DNA of 47,666 nucleotides, from the NCBI GenBank assembly GCA_903929355.1, contig CAIYUN010000055.1, positions 1 to 47,666 of the forward strand, read 5' to 3'. The notes beneath the pieces were generated by a model that worked only from the letters and a program-made list of their open reading frames with translations, searched no databases and had not been told where the DNA came from. The number at the start of each line of letters is the position of its first letter. Within the stretch, counting starts at the first letter, position 1. This DNA is from an uncultured Opitutaceae bacterium (GTDB lineage: Bacteria; Verrucomicrobiota; Verrucomicrobiia; Opitutales; Opitutaceae). This document shows positions 18,767 to 27,297 of the stretch, piece after piece. The position numbers and the translations under genes were made by a program.

Positions 18767-21589
18767 ATGCCACTGCTCCGCAACCTCTGGCTGAACTTCG
18801 TCCGCGTGGTCCGCTCGCTCGGCCGGATTTCCCTGCTGCTGCTCTGGGCGCTCCTTCTGGCCGGGCTTTATGTCCAAATTCAAGTCGCGACCCTCGACGG
18901 GCTCACCCTGCCCGATCCCGCCAAACGCGCGCTCCTGGATCATCTGGCCGCACTTGGCCTGCAGGCGGACTTTGCCCGCGCCCGTTTCGACCCCACGGGA
19001 CGCATTCTGATCGAGGATGTCCGCCTGGGCGACCCCAAAATCCCCGGCGCCCTCATCACCGCGCGCAGTCTCTCGACACGGGTGAATCCCTGGCTGCTGC
19101 TGGTGGGGGAGTTTGATTGCCACGAGCTGCAGGTGAACGGGGCCAGTTTGTTCAGGCCGGTCGAAAATCAACCGGATCCGTTTTCCTCCAGCCCACGATC
19201 GCCCTTTACCACCGTGGCCAAGGTGGCGCAGGACTTTGCATTCACGCTGCTTCTCACCCATCATGATTTGGTGGTGACACAACTGACCGGACGGGTGGGC
19301 GCGTTTGCGGTCAGCGCCAACGGGGCTTTGCGCCTGCCGCCCGCAACACCGTCGTCACCGGACTTAAGGGCCGCACTGGCCGCCTATCAATCGCTGGCCA
19401 TTGAACTCTCCTCTTGGGATGACGGGGCCCATCTGCTGGCCCCGCGCGTCGACCTCCACCTCACACCAGTGGACAACCAAATTGCCATCGCGGATGTCGT
19501 GGTGGACGCCAACGGCTATCCGGACAAAACTCCTTCGGTCGCGAACGGGGCTGGATTGATGGAATGCGGCCCGATGCACCTGACCGCTCGAGTGCCCTTG
19601 CTCGCGCCTGAGTCCGATCCGGTGGAAATTACGGGTGACATCGAGCACGCGACCCTGCCCAAATTGGGCGATGCGACGGCCGGCCGCCTCCATTTCATTC
19701 TGCGCGGCGATTTGCGACGCCCAGCCCCCCCCGCGGTTTCTTTTCCGGGACCCTACCCCACTTGGTGGCGCCTGGAGGCAACGCTCAATGCCGTCACCAG
19801 CCGGGCCCGTAATTTTTCAACCGGCCCGGTTGCCGCCACCCTCGCCCTCGACCTGGGGAAAATTTCCGTCGACGCCAGTGTGCAGGTGGCTGGCGCCCCC
19901 TGGGGCGTGCACGCACGGGCCGACTCCCTTGATCACCCGGTTCAAGTCTCCCTCGCCGGACCGGTGGACCACGCACTCCTCGCGCTCGCCGGTGAGCTGA
20001 CCGGTCACGACCTCGGCACCATCGTCCAACTCGCCGGGCCCGCGCAGCTGGATGCCACGGTCACGATCACCCCGGACGGAAAGCTGTCGGCTGCCGGGGG
20101 CCGGCTCGACGCCGGTGCCGTCCGCGTCGCCGGAGTGCCGCTCGACGCGGCAGCCGGGTCCTTCACGTTCGATGGCATCCACCTGCTTTGTCAGGACGTT
20201 TCGCTTAAAACCGGCGCAAACGTCGCGCGGGGCAGCTATGAGATGAACACCGCCACGCTCGATTACCGCTTCCTGCTCGCCGGTCACGCCCAGCCCGCCG
20301 CGCTGGCAGGGTGGTTTGGCAGCTGGTGGCCGGCGCTCTGGCATAACGCCGCCTTCCCCACCCCGCCGGAAGCCGATGTGGATGTCCAAGGCCGCTGGGA
20401 TGCGCCGGAACTCACTTCAGTGTTTGTCTCCGCTGCCGCCGACGGAGCCTCGATCGGTGGAATCGCGTTTGACGAAGCCCGCGCCCGGGCATTCATCCGG
20501 CCCGGCTGGGAAGACGTGCTCAGTTTTTCCGCCACGCAGGGAGCACGGGGTGTACGCGGCTCCGGAACCCTGGCTTGGGCGGCGGAGGGCACACTGCTCC
20601 GCTCCGTCGGGTTCGACCTCACGACCAACCTTGACCCCGACCAGCTCGCCCCCCTGCTCGGCCCGGAAGGCGTGACATGGGTCGCACCCTACCGTTTCGC
20701 GCAGCCACCCGACATAATGTTGCATGGCCGGCTCGAGGGTGAGACGGCTGCGGGATGGGCCCAGGTCACGGTTGACCTCGGCCTGCAGTCAACGGGCGAC
20801 CTGACCTATTACGGATTCCCGCTCCGGGACCTCGCGGCGCAGCTGCGGGTGCGCGACCACACTCTGGAACTGCCCTCCGTGACTTTCGGCTTTGCCGGCG
20901 GTCAGCTCCAGGGCAACGCCAAAGTGTCGGCTGAAAACGGCCCGGTTCACCATCTCTCCCTCAACGCGCACCTGACCGGTGCGAATCTCGGGGAAACCAT
21001 CCGGACTCTGGAGGATTACAGTGCCGCCCGGCAGGGCCTGCCCGCGCCCGCCACCAGCAAATTCCAGCAACGCCTCGCCACGGGACGGCTTGATCTAACG
21101 CTCACCGCCGAGGGTGACCCCACCCTCCCTCCCCAACTGCACGGCCAAGGCCATGCTGACATCACCGGAGCCGACTTCGGTCAGATCCAAATATTCGGAC
21201 TGCTATCCACCCTGCTCAACCACACCTTGTTGAATTTCAGCAGCATGAGTCTCGATACGCTGCACACCGACTTCGCGCTCGACGGGGAGAAGGTTTCCTT
21301 TCCCGGCGGGCTGACCCTCAGCGGTCCCCGCGCCAAAATCGGGGCCACAGGAGATTACCAGCTCGACTCGAACAAGTTGAATTTCAAGGTCAAAATCCAA
21401 CCCTTTGAGGAAAGCCGCACGCTGCTGGGCGACGTGGTCAAGGTGGTGATCAAACCGATCGAAACGGCCATGGAGGTCAATCTCCAAGGGACCCTGGAAA
21501 AGCCCGACTGGGTTTTCATCCTTGGGCCCACCAGTTTACTGCGCAAAATCACCGGGGCGCTCGACCAAACTCCATCCGATAAAAAATAA
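18767..21589 (+). CDS. AsmA-like envelope protein, large
   Basis: 940 residues with an N-terminal membrane helix (ISLLLLWALLLAGLYVQIQV) and a long beta-rich, repeat-like body, as in AsmA/TamB/YhdP-type bridge-like proteins that span the periplasm and are implicated in lipid or protein traffic to the outer membrane. The last 200 residues (GHADITGADFGQIQIFGLLS, LDTLHTDFALDGEKV, NLQGTLEKPDWVF) match the AsmA-like C-terminal domain. It follows the DUF4340 gene by 53 bases on the same strand, so it may be transcribed with the ABC cluster. Specific substrate unknown. Confidence 0.82.
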   Translation: MPLLRNLWLNFVRVVRSLGRISLLLLWALLLAGLYVQIQVATLDGLTLPDPAKRALLDHLAALGLQADFARARFDPTGRILIEDVRLGDPKIPGALITARSLSTRVNPWLLLVGEFDCHELQVNGASLFRPVENQPDPFSSSPRSPFTTVAKVAQDFAFTLLLTHHDLVVTQLTGRVGAFAVSANGALRLPPATPSSPDLRAALAAYQSLAIELSSWDDGAHLLAPRVDLHLTPVDNQIAIADVVVDANGYPDKTPSVANGAGLMECGPMHLTARVPLLAPESDPVEITGDIEHATLPKLGDATAGRLHFILRGDLRRPAPPAVSFPGPYPTWWRLEATLNAVTSRARNFSTGPVAATLALDLGKISVDASVQVAGAPWGVHARADSLDHPVQVSLAGPVDHALLALAGELTGHDLGTIVQLAGPAQLDATVTITPDGKLSAAGGRLDAGAVRVAGVPLDAAAGSFTFDGIHLLCQDVSLKTGANVARGSYEMNTATLDYRFLLAGHAQPAALAGWFGSWWPALWHNAAFPTPPEADVDVQGRWDAPELTSVFVSAAADGASIGGIAFDEARARAFIRPGWEDVLSFSATQGARGVRGSGTLAWAAEGTLLRSVGFDLTTNLDPDQLAPLLGPEGVTWVAPYRFAQPPDIMLHGRLEGETAAGWAQVTVDLGLQSTGDLTYYGFPLRDLAAQLRVRDHTLELPSVTFGFAGGQLQGNAKVSAENGPVHHLSLNAHLTGANLGETIRTLEDYSAARQGLPAPATSKFQQRLATGRLDLTLTAEGDPTLPPQLHGQGHADITGADFGQIQIFGLLSTLLNHTLLNFSSMSLDTLHTDFALDGEKVSFPGGLTLSGPRAKIGATGDYQLDSNKLNFKVKIQPFEESRTLLGDVVKVVIKPIETAMEVNLQGTLEKPDWVFILGPTSLLRKITGALDQTPSDKK

Positions 21590-21655: not shown

Positions 21656-24600
21656 ATGGCGTCACTGCCCACCCTTCCCAAAAAATCGTGGCCGTACCGG
21701 ACCACAATCGTCCTCGCCTGCGCGGCGCTGGGGGTGGCTGGTGCCTTGTTTTTTGACCTGATCGATCTGCCCCTCGTGGGTCGGACGGAAGGGCCACCCT
21801 GGCATTTTGTCCTGGCCGCCGGCGGCGCCGTCGTGGCGGCCGTGGTTCTGATCACCCAGCTGACTGGCTGGACGCAGGGGACGTGGTTCGCGCTGATCGC
21901 CGCCGGCTTTGGCGGCACCGAGCTGGTCGGCCTCCTGCTCGGCAAAGAGTCCCTGCTGGATGCGTGGTTCGCCCTGATGGTGCTCGAGGCCCCCCCGGCC
22001 GGCGGGAACGCCATGCCGCCCGTCGCCGCGCTCGCGCTTCTGCTCGCCGGTCTCGGCGTGGCCTGGTTCGCGGTGCCCTTTGGTCGCACCACCCGGGTCC
22101 CACTGCTCGCGCTGGTCGCCTCATTGCTCGCCGCCGTGGGCGGCGCCACCCTCGCTGCCCACGCATTTAACATGCCTGCAGCCACCCGGTGGGGCGCAGA
22201 CACCAGCCTGACACCGGGCGCGGGGCTGCTGGTGCTGACGCTGGGCCTCATGCTCCTCGCGCTCGCCACGCGCGAGCAATCCCGCGGGCCGGGCGGGCCG
22301 CCCGGGTGGCTGCCGCTGCCATTTCTCGCCGGCTCGGCCGCACTCACGTTTGTCTTCTGGGCCGGATTACGCGAGCGCGAGCTCGAGTACCTCGGAGCCA
22401 ACGCCCAGATCGGCGCCAGCAACCTCGCGAACGCCATCCACCTTGAGTTTCAACGCCAGGCCTCCCTGCTCGAACGTCTGGCCCAGCGCTGGACCGCCGG
22501 CCTCGTGCCCGAACCCGTCACCCGCGAGTCGGACGCCAAGATCCAGCTGGCCGACGCGCCCGGGGCCCAATCTCTCGCCTGGGTCACGTCGGACCTGAAC
22601 ACCGCCTGGTATTATCCACGGGAAGGCAACGAGGCGCTGATCAGCTTTAATCAGGGAAAGGACGACGAACGCCGGATCGCGCTCAACGCCGCCAGCCGCA
22701 GCGGCTACCCGGCCATTTCCGGCACCGTCCGGCTGGCCACGGTCGGTCCCGGCTTCGTCATCTTCGCGCCCGTAATGCGCGCCGGCGAGCTGGAAGGCTG
22801 GATTGCGATGGAGTTTGCGTACGACCGTTTTTTCTCCGCCCTGGACCAACGCGTCGGGGCCAGCCTCCACTACCGCTGCAGCATTTATGTGGGCACCCAG
22901 TCCGTCTATGAGTCTTCGCCCGCGAACGGCCCGACCGATGAAAACCAGGCCATCAGGCAGGAATTCGAAATCCAGCAGCGCCGCATTCAAATCGTCCTCG
23001 CGCCCACCCGCGAATACCTCGAGCGCAACCGCAACAGCCTGCCCGACCTGGTCCTCGTCACCGGCCTGGGCATCACCCTTCTGCTCGGGCTCACGGTCCA
23101 TCTCGCGCGCGCCGCCAGCGCCGGCCTGCGCACCACCCGGGATTCCAACCTCCGGCTCGTCTCAGAAAATGAGGAGCGCCGGGTGATTGAGGGCCGCCTC
23201 AAGACCTCCGACGAACGCCTCAACCTCGCCCTCGACTTGACCGCCATCGGTATTTTCGAATGGAATGTCGTGGCGGGTGACATCCACGGCAACCCGGGCT
23301 TGTGGTCGCTGCTGGGCCTCCCCCCCAATGTCCATTCCAACATCCCCGCCCTCTGGGAATCTCGGGTCCACCCCGCCGACCTGGACGCGTACCGCGCCAC
23401 CCGGGCCGCGCAGCTCGGCGGCGCCAAGGATTTCACCGACGCCGAGTACCGCATGCGCAACCCGGGCGGCGAATGGCGCTGGCTGTCCGTCCGCTCCAAG
23501 ACGGTCGCCGCCGCCACCGGCACCCCGGCCCGGATCGTTGGCACGGTCCAGGACATCAGCGCCCGGAAGAGGGCGGAAGCCGCCCTGGGGGAGAGCCAGA
23601 CCGCCGCCCGCAAGCTGTCCCTCGTCGCCAGCAAGACCGACAATCTGGTGATCATTGCCAAGCCCAACGGGACCATTGAGTGGGTCAATGAATCGTTCGT
23701 CCGCGTGATGGAGTACGCGCTCGACGAGGTGATCGGCCGCAATCCCGCGCATTTCATGATCGGCCCGGAAACCAGCCCCCGCGCCATCCGGCGGATCCGC
23801 CTCGCGTTCGCCCAGGGTCAGGGCATCAGCACGGAGATCGTCAACTACGCCAAATCCGGCCGCCGCTTTCATCTCCAGCTCGAGATCCAACCCGTCCGCG
23901 ATGCCCACGGGGTGCTGGAGAATTTCATCGCCATCCAGGCGGACATCACCGCGCGCGTCGAGGCCGAGACCGCGTTGCGCCGGGCCAAGCTCGAGGCCGA
24001 CGCCGCCTCCCGCGCCAAGAGCGAGTTCCTCGCCTCGCTCTCCCACAAGATCCGCACGCCCATGAACGGGGTGATTGGGATGACCAGCCTCCTCCTCGAC
24101 ACCACGCTCAACCCCGACCAGCGCGATTTTGTGGGCACCATCCGCTCCAGCGGCGAGGCCCTGCTCGGCATCATCAACGACATCCTGGACTTTTCCAAGA
24201 TCGAGTCCGGCAAGTTCGAGATCGACCACCAGCCGTTTGAGCTCGCCGCCTGTCTCGAGGACACCCTCGACCTGTTCAGCGGCCAGGCCGCCGCCCGCAA
24301 GCTTGAGCTCTCCCACTCGATTGCGGCCGATGTGCCCGCGGTGATTCTCGGCGACGCCGCCCGGCTCCGCCAGGTTATCTCCAACCTCGTCAACAACGCC
24401 ATCAAGTTCACTCCGGCCGGCCGGGTCACGGTGGAGGCACGCCTGCTCCCGTCCGAGAGCCGCAGCCCTTTCAGCCCCGGCAAGGTGGCCGGCCGGGCCC
24501 GGCTGGAGGTGGTGGTGCGCGACAGCGGCATCGGAATCCCGCCCGACCGGCTCAACCGCCTGTTCAAACCGTTCTCGCAGGTGGATTCCTCCACCACGCG

Positions 24601-25429
24601 GAAATACGGCGGCACCGGCCTTGGCCTCGCCATCTGCCACCGCCTCTGTGCGCTCATGGGCGGCGGGATCCGGGTCGAGAGCATTGCCGGCCAGGGCTCC
24701 GCGTTCATCGCGACCATCGCCGTCGAGCTGCCCCCGAAAGGTCGGCTACCGGCCCCCTCCGCGCTCCCACCCCAGCTTCCCCCGGGCAGTCGCGTGCTCT
24801 GTTTTGACGACAATCCGGTGACGCTCCGCTGGCTCACAATCTTTTTTGAACGCTCGGGTCTGGCGGTCCTCCCGGTCACCACCCCCGCCGCCGCGCTGAG
24901 CGCCCTCCGCGCCATCGACGCCCCCGTCCTGGCGATCCTGGACCTTGACCCCGCCGCCGAAACCGCGTCCTTCCACGCGGTGCTCGCGACCCTGCCCGTG
25001 CGCGTCCTTGGTCTGCTGCCTGCCGGCGCCCCGGCCCTTCCGTTGTCCGCTCGTTTTGCCGGATTCACCAAACCGCTCCGCACCCTGGCTTTTGTCCGCG
25101 CCCTGCAGGCCCTCTTCCAAAGCGAAGCCGGCGCGGCCCGTGCCTCGCCCGCCGCGCCCGTGCGCCTGCTCGCCGAGGAGATCCCGCTGGCCGTGCTCCT
25201 CGTCGAGGACAACCCGGTGAATCAAAAGGTCGGCGTGCGCTTTCTCGAGCGTCTCGGCTACCGGGCCGATGTCGCCGCCAACGGCCGCGAGGCGCTGGCC
25301 GCCTTCGCCGTCCGTCATTACGATTTTGTCCTGATGGACATCCAGATGCCGGAGATGGACGGTTATGAAACCACGCGGGAAATCCGCCGCCGGCAGGATC
25401 CCAAACGCGCCCCCGGATTGTCGCATTGA
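21656..25429 (+). CDS. Hybrid sensor histidine kinase, frameshifted near its 3' end
   Basis: As it stands 1257 residues. Order: N-terminal membrane region with about eight helices (1-235), a CHASE-like extracytoplasmic domain (about 245-460), a helix at 462-485, PAS domains at about 520-640 and 650-765, HisKA (783-850), HATPase (895-1020: ISNLVNNAIKF, DSGIGIP, GGTGLGLAI), a degenerate receiver (1041-1150, DDN kept but the phosphoacceptor region reads ILDLDPA), and a second receiver (1176 on: LLVEDNPVNQK, phosphoacceptor D1228 in LMDIQMPEMDG). Two anomalies: the H-box reads SHKIRTP, with lysine where Glu normally follows the phosphoacceptor His; and the frame breaks in a run of five C at 25410-25414, ending in PGLSH instead of the receiver's last third. 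Likely impaired unless the assembly is wrong. Confidence 0.9.
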   Translation: MASLPTLPKKSWPYRTTIVLACAALGVAGALFFDLIDLPLVGRTEGPPWHFVLAAGGAVVAAVVLITQLTGWTQGTWFALIAAGFGGTELVGLLLGKESLLDAWFALMVLEAPPAGGNAMPPVAALALLLAGLGVAWFAVPFGRTTRVPLLALVASLLAAVGGATLAAHAFNMPAATRWGADTSLTPGAGLLVLTLGLMLLALATREQSRGPGGPPGWLPLPFLAGSAALTFVFWAGLRERELEYLGANAQIGASNLANAIHLEFQRQASLLERLAQRWTAGLVPEPVTRESDAKIQLADAPGAQSLAWVTSDLNTAWYYPREGNEALISFNQGKDDERRIALNAASRSGYPAISGTVRLATVGPGFVIFAPVMRAGELEGWIAMEFAYDRFFSALDQRVGASLHYRCSIYVGTQSVYESSPANGPTDENQAIRQEFEIQQRRIQIVLAPTREYLERNRNSLPDLVLVTGLGITLLLGLTVHLARAASAGLRTTRDSNLRLVSENEERRVIEGRLKTSDERLNLALDLTAIGIFEWNVVAGDIHGNPGLWSLLGLPPNVHSNIPALWESRVHPADLDAYRATRAAQLGGAKDFTDAEYRMRNPGGEWRWLSVRSKTVAAATGTPARIVGTVQDISARKRAEAALGESQTAARKLSLVASKTDNLVIIAKPNGTIEWVNESFVRVMEYALDEVIGRNPAHFMIGPETSPRAIRRIRLAFAQGQGISTEIVNYAKSGRRFHLQLEIQPVRDAHGVLENFIAIQADITARVEAETALRRAKLEADAASRAKSEFLASLSHKIRTPMNGVIGMTSLLLDTTLNPDQRDFVGTIRSSGEALLGIINDILDFSKIESGKFEIDHQPFELAACLEDTLDLFSGQAAARKLELSHSIAADVPAVILGDAARLRQVISNLVNNAIKFTPAGRVTVEARLLPSESRSPFSPGKVAGRARLEVVVRDSGIGIPPDRLNRLFKPFSQVDSSTTRKYGGTGLGLAICHRLCALMGGGIRVESIAGQGSAFIATIAVELPPKGRLPAPSALPPQLPPGSRVLCFDDNPVTLRWLTIFFERSGLAVLPVTTPAAALSALRAIDAPVLAILDLDPAAETASFHAVLATLPVRVLGLLPAGAPALPLSARFAGFTKPLRTLAFVRALQALFQSEAGAARASPAAPVRLLAEEIPLAVLLVEDNPVNQKVGVRFLERLGYRADVAANGREALAAFAVRHYDFVLMDIQMPEMDGYETTREIRRRQDPKRAPGLSH

Positions 25430-25560
25430 CCGCCAATGCGATGCAAAGCGACCGTGATCAGAGCACCATCGTGGGGATGGATGGTTTTATCACGAAACCG
25501 GTGAAGTTGCAGGAGATCACCGATGCAATCCGCCGGCTCTTTCCCCCCGTCGTGCGCTGA
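25415..25560 (+). other. Out-of-frame 3' remainder of the hybrid kinase receiver domain
   Basis: In the next frame this reads IVALTANAMQSDRDQS, then GMDGFITKPVKLQEI and a TGA at 25558-25560: exactly the missing last third of the second receiver, including the conserved lysine of TKP. Adding one C to the run at 25410-25414 joins the two parts into one 1301-residue protein. No independent start is needed. The restored stop lies 23 bases from the convergent sulfatase-like gene. Confidence 0.9.
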
Positions 25561-25583: not shown

Positions 25584-26948
25584 TCACCGGAGTCCCGCCG
25601 ACTCCAGCAGCGCGGCCATCTCGCTTTTCCGTGCCGGATTCCGGGCCAGATTCGCCTCCTCCCCTGGATCCTGTTCCAAATCAAAAAACAGCCACGGCGA
25701 ACCACCCTCGCCCGGTTCGGCCGAAGGACCGGCCGACAACACCAGCTTCCGGGTTCTCGTGCGCACGCCCCGCCAGACCCGATCGCATTGGAGCGGCAAC
25801 CGCACCAGGCTCGGCATGGAAATGTTTGCCACGGTGGGGTGCGTGGCCCCGACCGTGGCGGCTCCATCCGCCCACGCCCTTGTCATGGCGGGCAGATCCA
25901 ACAAGGAAATCGCGTCGTCGCACCTGGCCCCCGGGGGCTCCGCCTTTCGGCTGCCACCCGCCGACCCGGATGCGGCGGCCTTGTCACCCTGACGCGGGGC
26001 CCCGCCCTCCGTCGGCAACCGCACCAGCAGCGGCACGCGCACCGACTCCTCATGGGGCCAGCCCTTGCGAAATCGTCCATGGGCCCCATGCATGTCGCCG
26101 TGCACGGAGGTGAAGACGACCAGGTTCGGACGGTGGCCTGGACCACCTGCCCGGGGCAGGGCTTCGGTCAATCTGCCCACCGCCCGGTCGGTGGCCTCGA
26201 TATGCGCATAGTAGCCCGCCAGCTCCCGGCGGGCGCGAATCTCCACCGCGCCGCCGCGCGGCACGTTGGCCGGCAGGCTGAGGTCTCCCGGGTCACGTGC
26301 CGGGACGCCCGCCGCCGGAGCGTCGTAGGGAGGATGCGGGGCCTCCAAACTCACCAGGCAAAACCACGGCGGTCCGGCTGGTTCATCGGACCATGGTCCC
26401 AGGTCATTGTGCATGGTGCCACGCCCGATCCACTCGGCCGCCCGACCGCATAGGACGTCGCTCTGATATCCGTGGAACTGGGTCGGCGCCAGGAAACGCG
26501 TGCCATGGAGCCAGGGGTCGTTCAGCAAAAATCCACCGTCAAAACCCTCCCAGAACCCGAAGCCGCCGCGTCCCTCCGGGGGCACCACGGTGGTCGCGGC
26601 CGCCCGCCCCACCAGCGGGATGGCCGGATCGCGCCGGCCCAGATGCCATTTGCCAAAAAACGCGGTCGCATAACCACGCGCACCCAGATCGTGCGCCAGG
26701 GTCCGGGCGCCCTCGGGCAGACCGTCAAAGTAATCGCGCACCCCGTTGGCCGGCGAGGGCACTCCGGTGAGCAGGGCGGCCCGGGCGAACGGCCCGAAGG
26801 GATGGGGCGTCACCGCCTGGGTGAAGTTTACGCTCTCCGCCGCCAGCCGGTCGAGCCAGGGCGTGCGGGCATTGACATCACCCGCGCTGCCGAGCGCCTG
26901 GGCCCGCCATTGCGTCGTCACGATCCAGAGGATGTTGGGCCGCGCCAT
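25584..26948 (-). CDS. Sulfatase-fold protein lacking the catalytic residues
   Basis: 454 residues from ATG 26948 (MARPNILWIV); the frame is open upstream to 27029 but that part is not family-like. The alkaline-phosphatase/sulfatase scaffold is clear: RPNILWIV at the N-terminus, RAALLTGVPSPANGV, ATAFFGKWHLG, APHPPYDAP, EESVRVPLLVRLP, LFFDLEQDPGEEANLA. However, the sites that define activity are changed: the family's TDQQRAD metal motif reads TTQWRAQ; the C/S-x-P-S-R formylglycine site reads GPFAR (Gly at position 52); and TSDHGD reads TSVHGD. It therefore looks like an inactive, possibly binding or regulatory, relative. No signal peptide. A double-RHH gene lies 37 bases upstream on the same strand. 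Confidence 0.85.
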   Translation of the reverse strand: MARPNILWIVTTQWRAQALGSAGDVNARTPWLDRLAAESVNFTQAVTPHPFGPFARAALLTGVPSPANGVRDYFDGLPEGARTLAHDLGARGYATAFFGKWHLGRRDPAIPLVGRAAATTVVPPEGRGGFGFWEGFDGGFLLNDPWLHGTRFLAPTQFHGYQSDVLCGRAAEWIGRGTMHNDLGPWSDEPAGPPWFCLVSLEAPHPPYDAPAAGVPARDPGDLSLPANVPRGGAVEIRARRELAGYYAHIEATDRAVGRLTEALPRAGGPGHRPNLVVFTSVHGDMHGAHGRFRKGWPHEESVRVPLLVRLPTEGGAPRQGDKAAASGSAGGSRKAEPPGARCDDAISLLDLPAMTRAWADGAATVGATHPTVANISMPSLVRLPLQCDRVWRGVRTRTRKLVLSAGPSAEPGEGGSPWLFFDLEQDPGEEANLARNPARKSEMAALLESAGLR

Positions 26949-26985: not shown

Positions 26986-27297
26986 CTATTTTTTCCGCCG
27001 ACCGGTGGAGAGTCCCGCGATGGCCGCACGCAGCAGTTCCCCCACGCTCACCTTTTTCTTTTTGGCGGTCTTGAGGAGAAAGCGTCGCACGTCCGGGGGC
27101 AGCCGCACCGAGATTTGCCGGCGTTCGGGCTCAGCCGACTCGTAGCTCCCAAAATCAAACTCGCGCAACGCCTGGCGCACGACCTCGCTCGTCGATCCCA
27201 GCCCGGCCTGTTTGCGGCGCGACCCAATTTTGGTGAGCAGCTCAAGCGGCAGGTCGAACGTCAGCGGAGCTGACGCCGGAGAGGATTTTAAGGCCAT
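26986..27297 (-). CDS. Small protein with two tandem ribbon-helix-helix-like motifs
   Basis: 103 residues. The first half, LTFDLPLELLTKIGSRRKQ then STSEVVRQALREF, is ParD/NikR-like (strand-helix-helix); the second, QISVRLPPDVRRFLLKTA then VSVGELLRAAIAGL, is a CopG/Arc-like repeat of the same pattern. RHH proteins bind DNA as dimers, so two motifs in one chain could form a single-chain pseudo-dimer. Basic C-terminus. No ParE/RelE-like toxin ORF lies next to it; the neighbour is the sulfatase-fold gene, 37 bases downstream on the same strand, which it might regulate. DNA-binding role is an inference from the fold. Confidence 0.75.
   Translation of the reverse strand: MALKSSPASAPLTFDLPLELLTKIGSRRKQAGLGSTSEVVRQALREFDFGSYESAEPERRQISVRLPPDVRRFLLKTAKKKKVSVGELLRAAIAGLSTGRRKK

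Follow-up and report, generated by a model that had tools for sequence, protein, structure and literature searches.

The 47,666-nucleotide stretch of DNA analysed here (the window) is an Opitutaceae contig that carries, on the minus strand at positions 25584–26948, a gene for a protein of 454 residues with the sulfatase fold of the alkaline phosphatase superfamily, referred to below as the pseudo-sulfatase. Both its location and its open frame agree with the first-pass annotation of this DNA; an alternative upstream start, a GTG at 27029, would add 27 residues. Residues 4–316 match the sulfatase family PF00884 with 92 bits (cut-off 25, E = 5.6e-26), and a scan of the protein against NCBIfam gave no model at or above its cut-off. 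No regulatory domain was found in it. No other PF00884 match occurs in its genome (G000; 3.8 Mb, 96% complete). In the same genome we count fifteen matches to PF03781, the formylglycine-generating-enzyme type, and found no intact PF00884 sulfatase; the PF03781 proteins may serve other functions.

The AlphaFold2 model of the protein has a pLDDT of 88.4 and a pTM of 0.91. Its input alignment (A1) used 54 of 81 aligned members, 27 being left out. A Foldseek search with this model places S1 sulfatases at the top of the solved matches, with 6j66 and 2qzu leading. Superposition on 2qzu (Bacteroides fragilis yidJ), the best solved match, gives a Z-score of 39.7 over 402 residues at 2.7 Å, and comparison with the choline sulfatase structure 6g5z gives a Z-score of 32.9 over 366 residues. 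With the 50 top structural matches listed, the protein shares 20–28% sequence identity. The sulfatase fold read from the sequence in the first-pass annotation is thus borne out by both the PF00884 match and the superposition on S1 sulfatases. The window copy starts MARPNILW and no signal peptide is apparent on reading, so the protein is expected to be cytosolic. The start codon lies 2–8 codons ahead of the first strand in 103 of the 115 family rows with enough upstream frame; the same placement is seen in 11 of 23 other relatives.

Two plus-strand genes converge on the pseudo-sulfatase gene. The nearer (21656–25429) encodes a hybrid histidine kinase with the domain order CHASE-PAS-HisKA-HATPase-REC and the farther (18767–21589) an AsmA-like protein, whose PF05170 match of 24.4 bits is under the cut-off of 29.8. 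The kinase frame is broken near 25411, inside the receiver domain, and the remainder continues in another frame at 25411–25560 (+), which reflects either a frameshift or an assembly error. We compared 113 distinct loci, 96 of which include 5 kb downstream. Among these 96, the N-terminal half of the kinase is convergent in 56 (one of them, L048, a weak match) and the AsmA-like gene in 63. Both kinase halves accompany the AsmA-like gene in 55. In seven the AsmA-like gene occurs but the kinase does not, and 33 lack both the AsmA-like gene and the kinase N-terminal half; the deep-subgroup loci L194–L200 belong to these 33. The convergent pair looks like inherited synteny and says little about function.

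On the strand of the pseudo-sulfatase gene, none of the 45 neighbour clusters printed that is centred within 1 kb upstream occurs in more than 20 of the 113 loci. One same-strand cluster is present in 38 of 113, with a median midpoint 2.3 kb upstream and an example copy that ends 3 kb upstream. Other recurrent neighbours, named by reading their sequences, are peptide deformylase, ribonucleotide reductase, dienelactone-hydrolase-like and ECF sigma genes. Of the 80 loci that include 4 kb upstream, three, the window itself among them, have a match above 400 bits to the window's UgpC gene, and the window's RibD-C and GxGYxYP genes recur in no other locus compared. We rejected an assignment of function from an operon, as no operon partner was found at the loci compared and the recurrent neighbours are convergent.

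Residues of the former active site

The report on the choline sulfatase SmCS (PMC5870055) names Asp14, Asp296 and His297 as metal ligands. Cys54, or the formylglycine made from it, touches His104 and the metal; Lys102 and Asn75 hold the sulfate oxygens; and the pair His201–Lys309 is the general acid, with Gln15 touching Lys309. We mapped these residues onto the pseudo-sulfatase by motifs and spacing, not by coordinates. On this mapping Asp14, Gln15, Cys54, Asn75, Lys102 and His104 correspond to T12, Q13, G52, Y73, K100 and H102, and His201, Asp296, His297 and Lys309 to H205, V282, H283 and K295. Each position was then read in 133 distinct family rows, reached by adding members of the deeper subgroups to a first set of 81 sequences, and in the 30 next-best relatives fetched, of which 23 come from non-family genomes and seven are paralogues inside family genomes. 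The fragment L007 and all matches below 150 bits were left out.

Both metal-binding aspartates and the nucleophile are gone. Position 12, in T12–Q13 (26910–26915, minus strand, as are all segments below), is Thr in 130 rows and Ser in two, with one gap, compared to Asp in all 30 relatives. Position 52 (26793–26795), in the segment H49 to F54 (26787–26804), is Gly in 132 rows and Ala in one, compared to Cys in 30 of 30. The second metal Asp is replaced at position 282, in V282 to G288 (26085–26105), by Val in 113 rows, Ala in 18, Met in one and Thr in one; the relatives again have Asp in 30 of 30. None of the 133 copies read keeps the Cys or either metal Asp, whereas all 30 relatives have the three together. 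In the first alignment of 81 sequences, T12 was present in 81, G52 in 80 and V282 in 78. A fourth replacement concerns the sulfate-binding residue: Y73 (26730–26732) is Tyr in 133 of 133 rows, where the relatives have Asn (15), His (12) or Thr (3). These replacements are beyond chance, because they are common to 133 distinct homologues. Formylglycine formation is signalled by a C/S-x-P/A-x-R motif, according to PMC10154612. This motif is absent from the family, in which the position of its Pro, 54, is Phe, Met, Gln, Leu or Trp.

Much of the remaining site is retained. The Arg of the CxPxR motif, R56 (26781–26783), is present in 133 of 133 rows, and so are the lysine and the His–Lys general-acid residues of S1 sulfatases, namely K100 in K100 to L103 (26640–26651), H205 in E202 to P207 (26328–26345) and K295 in K295 to W297 (26058–26066). 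H283 and D285 are likewise found in all 133 copies. Q13 is kept in 132 rows, with one gap, and Gln is also found in all 30 intact relatives. In the window copy position 102, the equivalent of SmCS His104, is still His, as in 79 of the 133 rows, but it drifts. The His of GKWH is Gly in 31 of the 133 copies (L105, L123–L126 and L160, for example, read GKWGVG) and Gln in 23. Overall, residues that would hold or protonate a substrate stay, and those that form or assist the nucleophile have been lost (C52, P54) or are drifting (H102).

Several residues are new to the family. H49 is nearly fixed (132 of 133), and position 202 is acidic throughout (Glu 111, Asp 22), compared to Gly (15), Gln (14) or Met (1) in the relatives. 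W297, G139, F140 and Q162 are each found in 133 of 133 copies and C388 in 130.

The first-pass annotation had correctly read the motifs TTQWRAQ, GPFAR and SVHGD at these sites and had concluded that all key catalytic sites were replaced. That conclusion holds for T12, G52 and V282, but R56, K100, H205, H283, K295 and Q13 are intact, and the replacement by Tyr73 had been missed. Of its metal motif TDQQRAD, the first Asp is a metal ligand in SmCS, but the last is not among the ligands named in the part of the SmCS report used here. In SDHGD, given as changed to SVHGD, the first Asp is replaced, but the His and the second Asp are kept.

The pseudo-sulfatase resembles S1 sulfatases in its whole fold, in the GKW, PH, HGD and K segments and in the Arg of CxPxR. 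It differs from intact-site relatives (such as L132–L135 and L188–L193) in all 133 rows at the Cys nucleophile, the two metal-binding Asp and the Asn/His that binds sulfate, and specifically from the choline sulfatase BetC/SmCS (PDB 6fny, 6g5z) in having T12, G52, Y73 and V282 in place of Asp14, Cys54, Asn75 and Asp296. The SulfAtlas paper (PMC5066984) describes PF00884 proteins that lack the canonical signature and are putatively inactive or misfiled, in which the positively charged residue of the motif is lost (nine Lentisphaerae and Planctomycetes sequences) or a TXNXE motif is found. The signature is absent here too, but compared to those cases, the pseudo-sulfatase keeps the Arg, loses the Cys and the metal ligands, and does so across a bacterial family. 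The bacterial pseudo-orthocaspases (PMC6426788) are likewise a bacterial pseudo-variant with a fixed replacement of catalytic residues, in an unrelated fold. Searches of open-access literature on inactive sulfatases, sulfatase pseudoenzymes and Opitutaceae sulfatases gave no earlier description of the pseudo-sulfatase among the papers listed.

Distribution, ancestry and selection

A scan of a genome collection of 84,980 species of bacteria and archaea gave 191 confirmed loci. The best 80 of these have 55–66% identity, and all 80 are named Opitutae, Opitutia, Opitutaceae, Opitutus, Ereboglobus, Cephaloticoccus, Rariglobus, Verrucomicrobia or Verrucomicrobiia. A profile search of 252 Opitutaceae genomes found matches with E ≤ 1e-60 in 235 of them, in 162 of the 165 good genomes and in all 49 genera. 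Since intact relatives reach 1e-85, we chose E ≤ 1e-100 as the threshold for counting, which leaves 228 of the 252 genomes and again 49 of 49 genera; this is a count by score, and the sites were read in 133. Set aside at this threshold were G001 (a fragment), G009, G109, G122, G156, G237 and G242. Three good genomes (G160, G229 and G251) gave no match, repeat search included. The best match outside Opitutaceae is 1.0e-85. The profile searches stayed within Verrucomicrobiota, and those of the class and the phylum covered samples, with about six first-look candidates scored per genome: the best non-family match has 273.5 bits among 286 genomes of the class, where 30 of the hits listed belong to the family, and 288 bits among 288 genomes of the phylum. 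Genome G014 contains two different copies (L175/L201 and L178/L202), each with an AsmA-like gene near it; with a stated contamination of 7%, the genome may be a mixture of two strains.

A maximum-likelihood tree (quick method) was built from 45 family rows and 30 others, 88 of the 133 family rows being left out, and after removal of the seven diagnostic columns 12, 52–54, 73, 102 and 282. A long branch (0.91), with an SH-aLRT support of 100, separates all 45 sampled family copies from the other rows. If the root lies among the intact relatives, the family is a clade with an apparent single origin.

Pairwise dN/dS ranges from 0.098 to 0.388 in the 40 printed of 45 pairs, which have 80–99.9% identity; the pairs are non-independent and the highest values occur at very low dS. 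As far as these ratios indicate, the altered pocket is under purifying selection in the pairs measured. Eight of the ten columns of the former active site are at least 98% conserved, compared to 74 of 363 overall (p = 7e-5), the two below this level being H102 and 282. Since the intact relatives, too, show no variation at several of the eight, the test is not specific to a new role and part of the pocket conservation may belong to the fold.

The frame itself is mostly complete. In 132 of the 133 rows it extends to position 420 or beyond in the model of 469 positions, in place of the broken or relaxed frame of a pseudogene, and L165 (genome G102) is the sole copy that ends well short, at model position 364. 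About ten matches in the search tables run over a stop codon. Five of these, read from stop to stop (L120, L131, L161, L162 and L166), cover the model to 432–452 of 469, and the stop in those five therefore lies at the C-terminal end.

An enzyme fold, clade-wide loss of catalytic residues, purifying selection and wide retention thus occur together, as in pseudoenzymes. Because nearly every member of Opitutaceae keeps the same replacements, the gene has probably been repurposed rather than broken. The first-pass annotation had argued for a selected protein over recent decay and had proposed a survey of orthologues and an estimate of dN/dS. Orthologues with intact sites, part of what it had named as a refutation, were not found: none of the 133 copies read is intact, all have the same replacements in common, and the ratios point to purifying selection in the pairs measured. 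Its argument is strongly supported by these results and by the near-universal presence according to profile score.

Possible roles of the altered pocket

We consider it rather probable that the protein is a cytosolic pseudo-sulfatase with a metal-free pocket that binds a small anionic or sugar-like ligand without desulfating it. The directly observed part of this explanation is the exchange, relative to intact relatives, of Cys for Gly52, Asp for Thr12, Asp for Val282 and Asn/His for Tyr73. Formylglycine chemistry requires the Cys and a metal (PMC10154612). With the Cys lost along with the two metal carboxylates, transesterification at a formylglycine, and with it desulfation by the known route, would be impossible. 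The first-pass description of the protein as non-enzymatic is apt for this formylglycine and metal route, which is left without its parts, but is too broad as regards new metal-free chemistry, for which there is still room. The kept residues R56, K100, H205, H283 and K295, together with the new H49, Y73, E/D202 and W297, would form the metal-free pocket. With two carboxylates lost and the basic residues retained, it would also be more positive, and it may hold a small anionic or sugar-like ligand. Binding itself would then be the function, with the protein acting as a housekeeping sensor or scaffold through protein contacts; this is the least certain part.

We favor a ligand-binding, non-hydrolysing protein because the binding-side residues are kept and nucleophile-dead mutants bind ligands. 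By their entry titles, the solved nucleophile-dead sulfatases 6pt6, 6ptk and 7pth still hold ligands. These mutants presumably retain their metal, and therefore show only that the nucleophile is dispensable for binding. For the ligand-binding regulator that the first-pass annotation had put forward as a possibility, the retained basic pocket is compatible with binding, but neither an operon, a regulatory domain nor a ligand was found. Tyr73 hints at a ligand other than a plain sulfate ester, or at a partly filled site. This residue could occupy the old sulfate site, which counts against the binding model.

If the old pocket were filled altogether, the protein would be a purely structural or protein-binding scaffold with no small ligand. 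Tyr73, Phe54 and Val282 exceed the residues they replace in bulk or hydrophobicity and would suit such a site, but the five basic residues are invariant in 133 of 133 copies although they would be costly to bury without a metal or a sulfate, and we regard this explanation as unlikely. About equally unlikely is a re-invented enzyme that runs a different, metal-free reaction through H49, H205, K295, E/D202 and possibly Tyr73. New, near-fixed reactive residues (H49 in 132 of 133 copies, Y73 and E/D202 in 133 of 133) do lie within segments of the former active site, and H205/K295, once the general-acid pair, is retained. Against this, the nucleophile position is Gly (with one Ala), and the superfamily has, to our knowledge, no member that functions when nucleophile and metal are both missing.

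It is very improbable that the protein assists or regulates active sulfatases as a non-catalytic partner, or serves as a decoy for the formylglycine-generating enzyme. More than one PF00884 match is listed in 24 of 30 family genomes (match counts only, sites not read), intact-site paralogues occur in some family genomes (L139, L150, L151 and L179–L182), and the window's genome has the fifteen PF03781 matches. However, the pseudo-sulfatase is the only PF00884 match in five of the 30 genomes (G000, which is the window's, G032, G033, G169 and G171), which represent three genera with a completeness of 96% or more each, and the protein has lost the CxPxR motif that the maturase reads. With no other PF00884 match in these five, helping active sulfatases or acting as a maturase decoy was rejected as a general role. 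A sixth genome, G001, also has one PF00884 match, which is not the pseudo-sulfatase gene. A decaying gene or a sequencing artefact, to which the lost catalytic residues, the early end of L165 and the matches that run over a stop codon might point, is refuted by the orthologue survey unless the frames themselves are artefacts, given dN/dS well below 1 in the 40 printed pairs, the wide presence, the same replacements in 133 copies and the near-complete model coverage of the five stop-bearing matches read.

Returning to the pseudo-sulfatase as a ligand-binding protein, a broader proposal can be made, with more doubt than conviction: it might be a near-universal core protein of Opitutaceae whose sulfatase pocket underwent a single, early conversion into a metal-free site, which either senses a central anionic metabolite or carries out a metal-free reaction new to the alkaline phosphatase superfamily. 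On the sequence evidence, the family is a clade-wide pseudoenzyme of S1 sulfatases. With intact relatives and an apparent single origin, it offers a clean natural example of how a formylglycine enzyme can become something else. Annotation of sulfatases often relies on the fold alone, and their counts are used to argue that Verrucomicrobiota eat sulfated sugars. The pseudo-sulfatase inflates such counts, because it matches PF00884 although the parts needed for the known mechanism are missing, and because nearly the whole family carries it.
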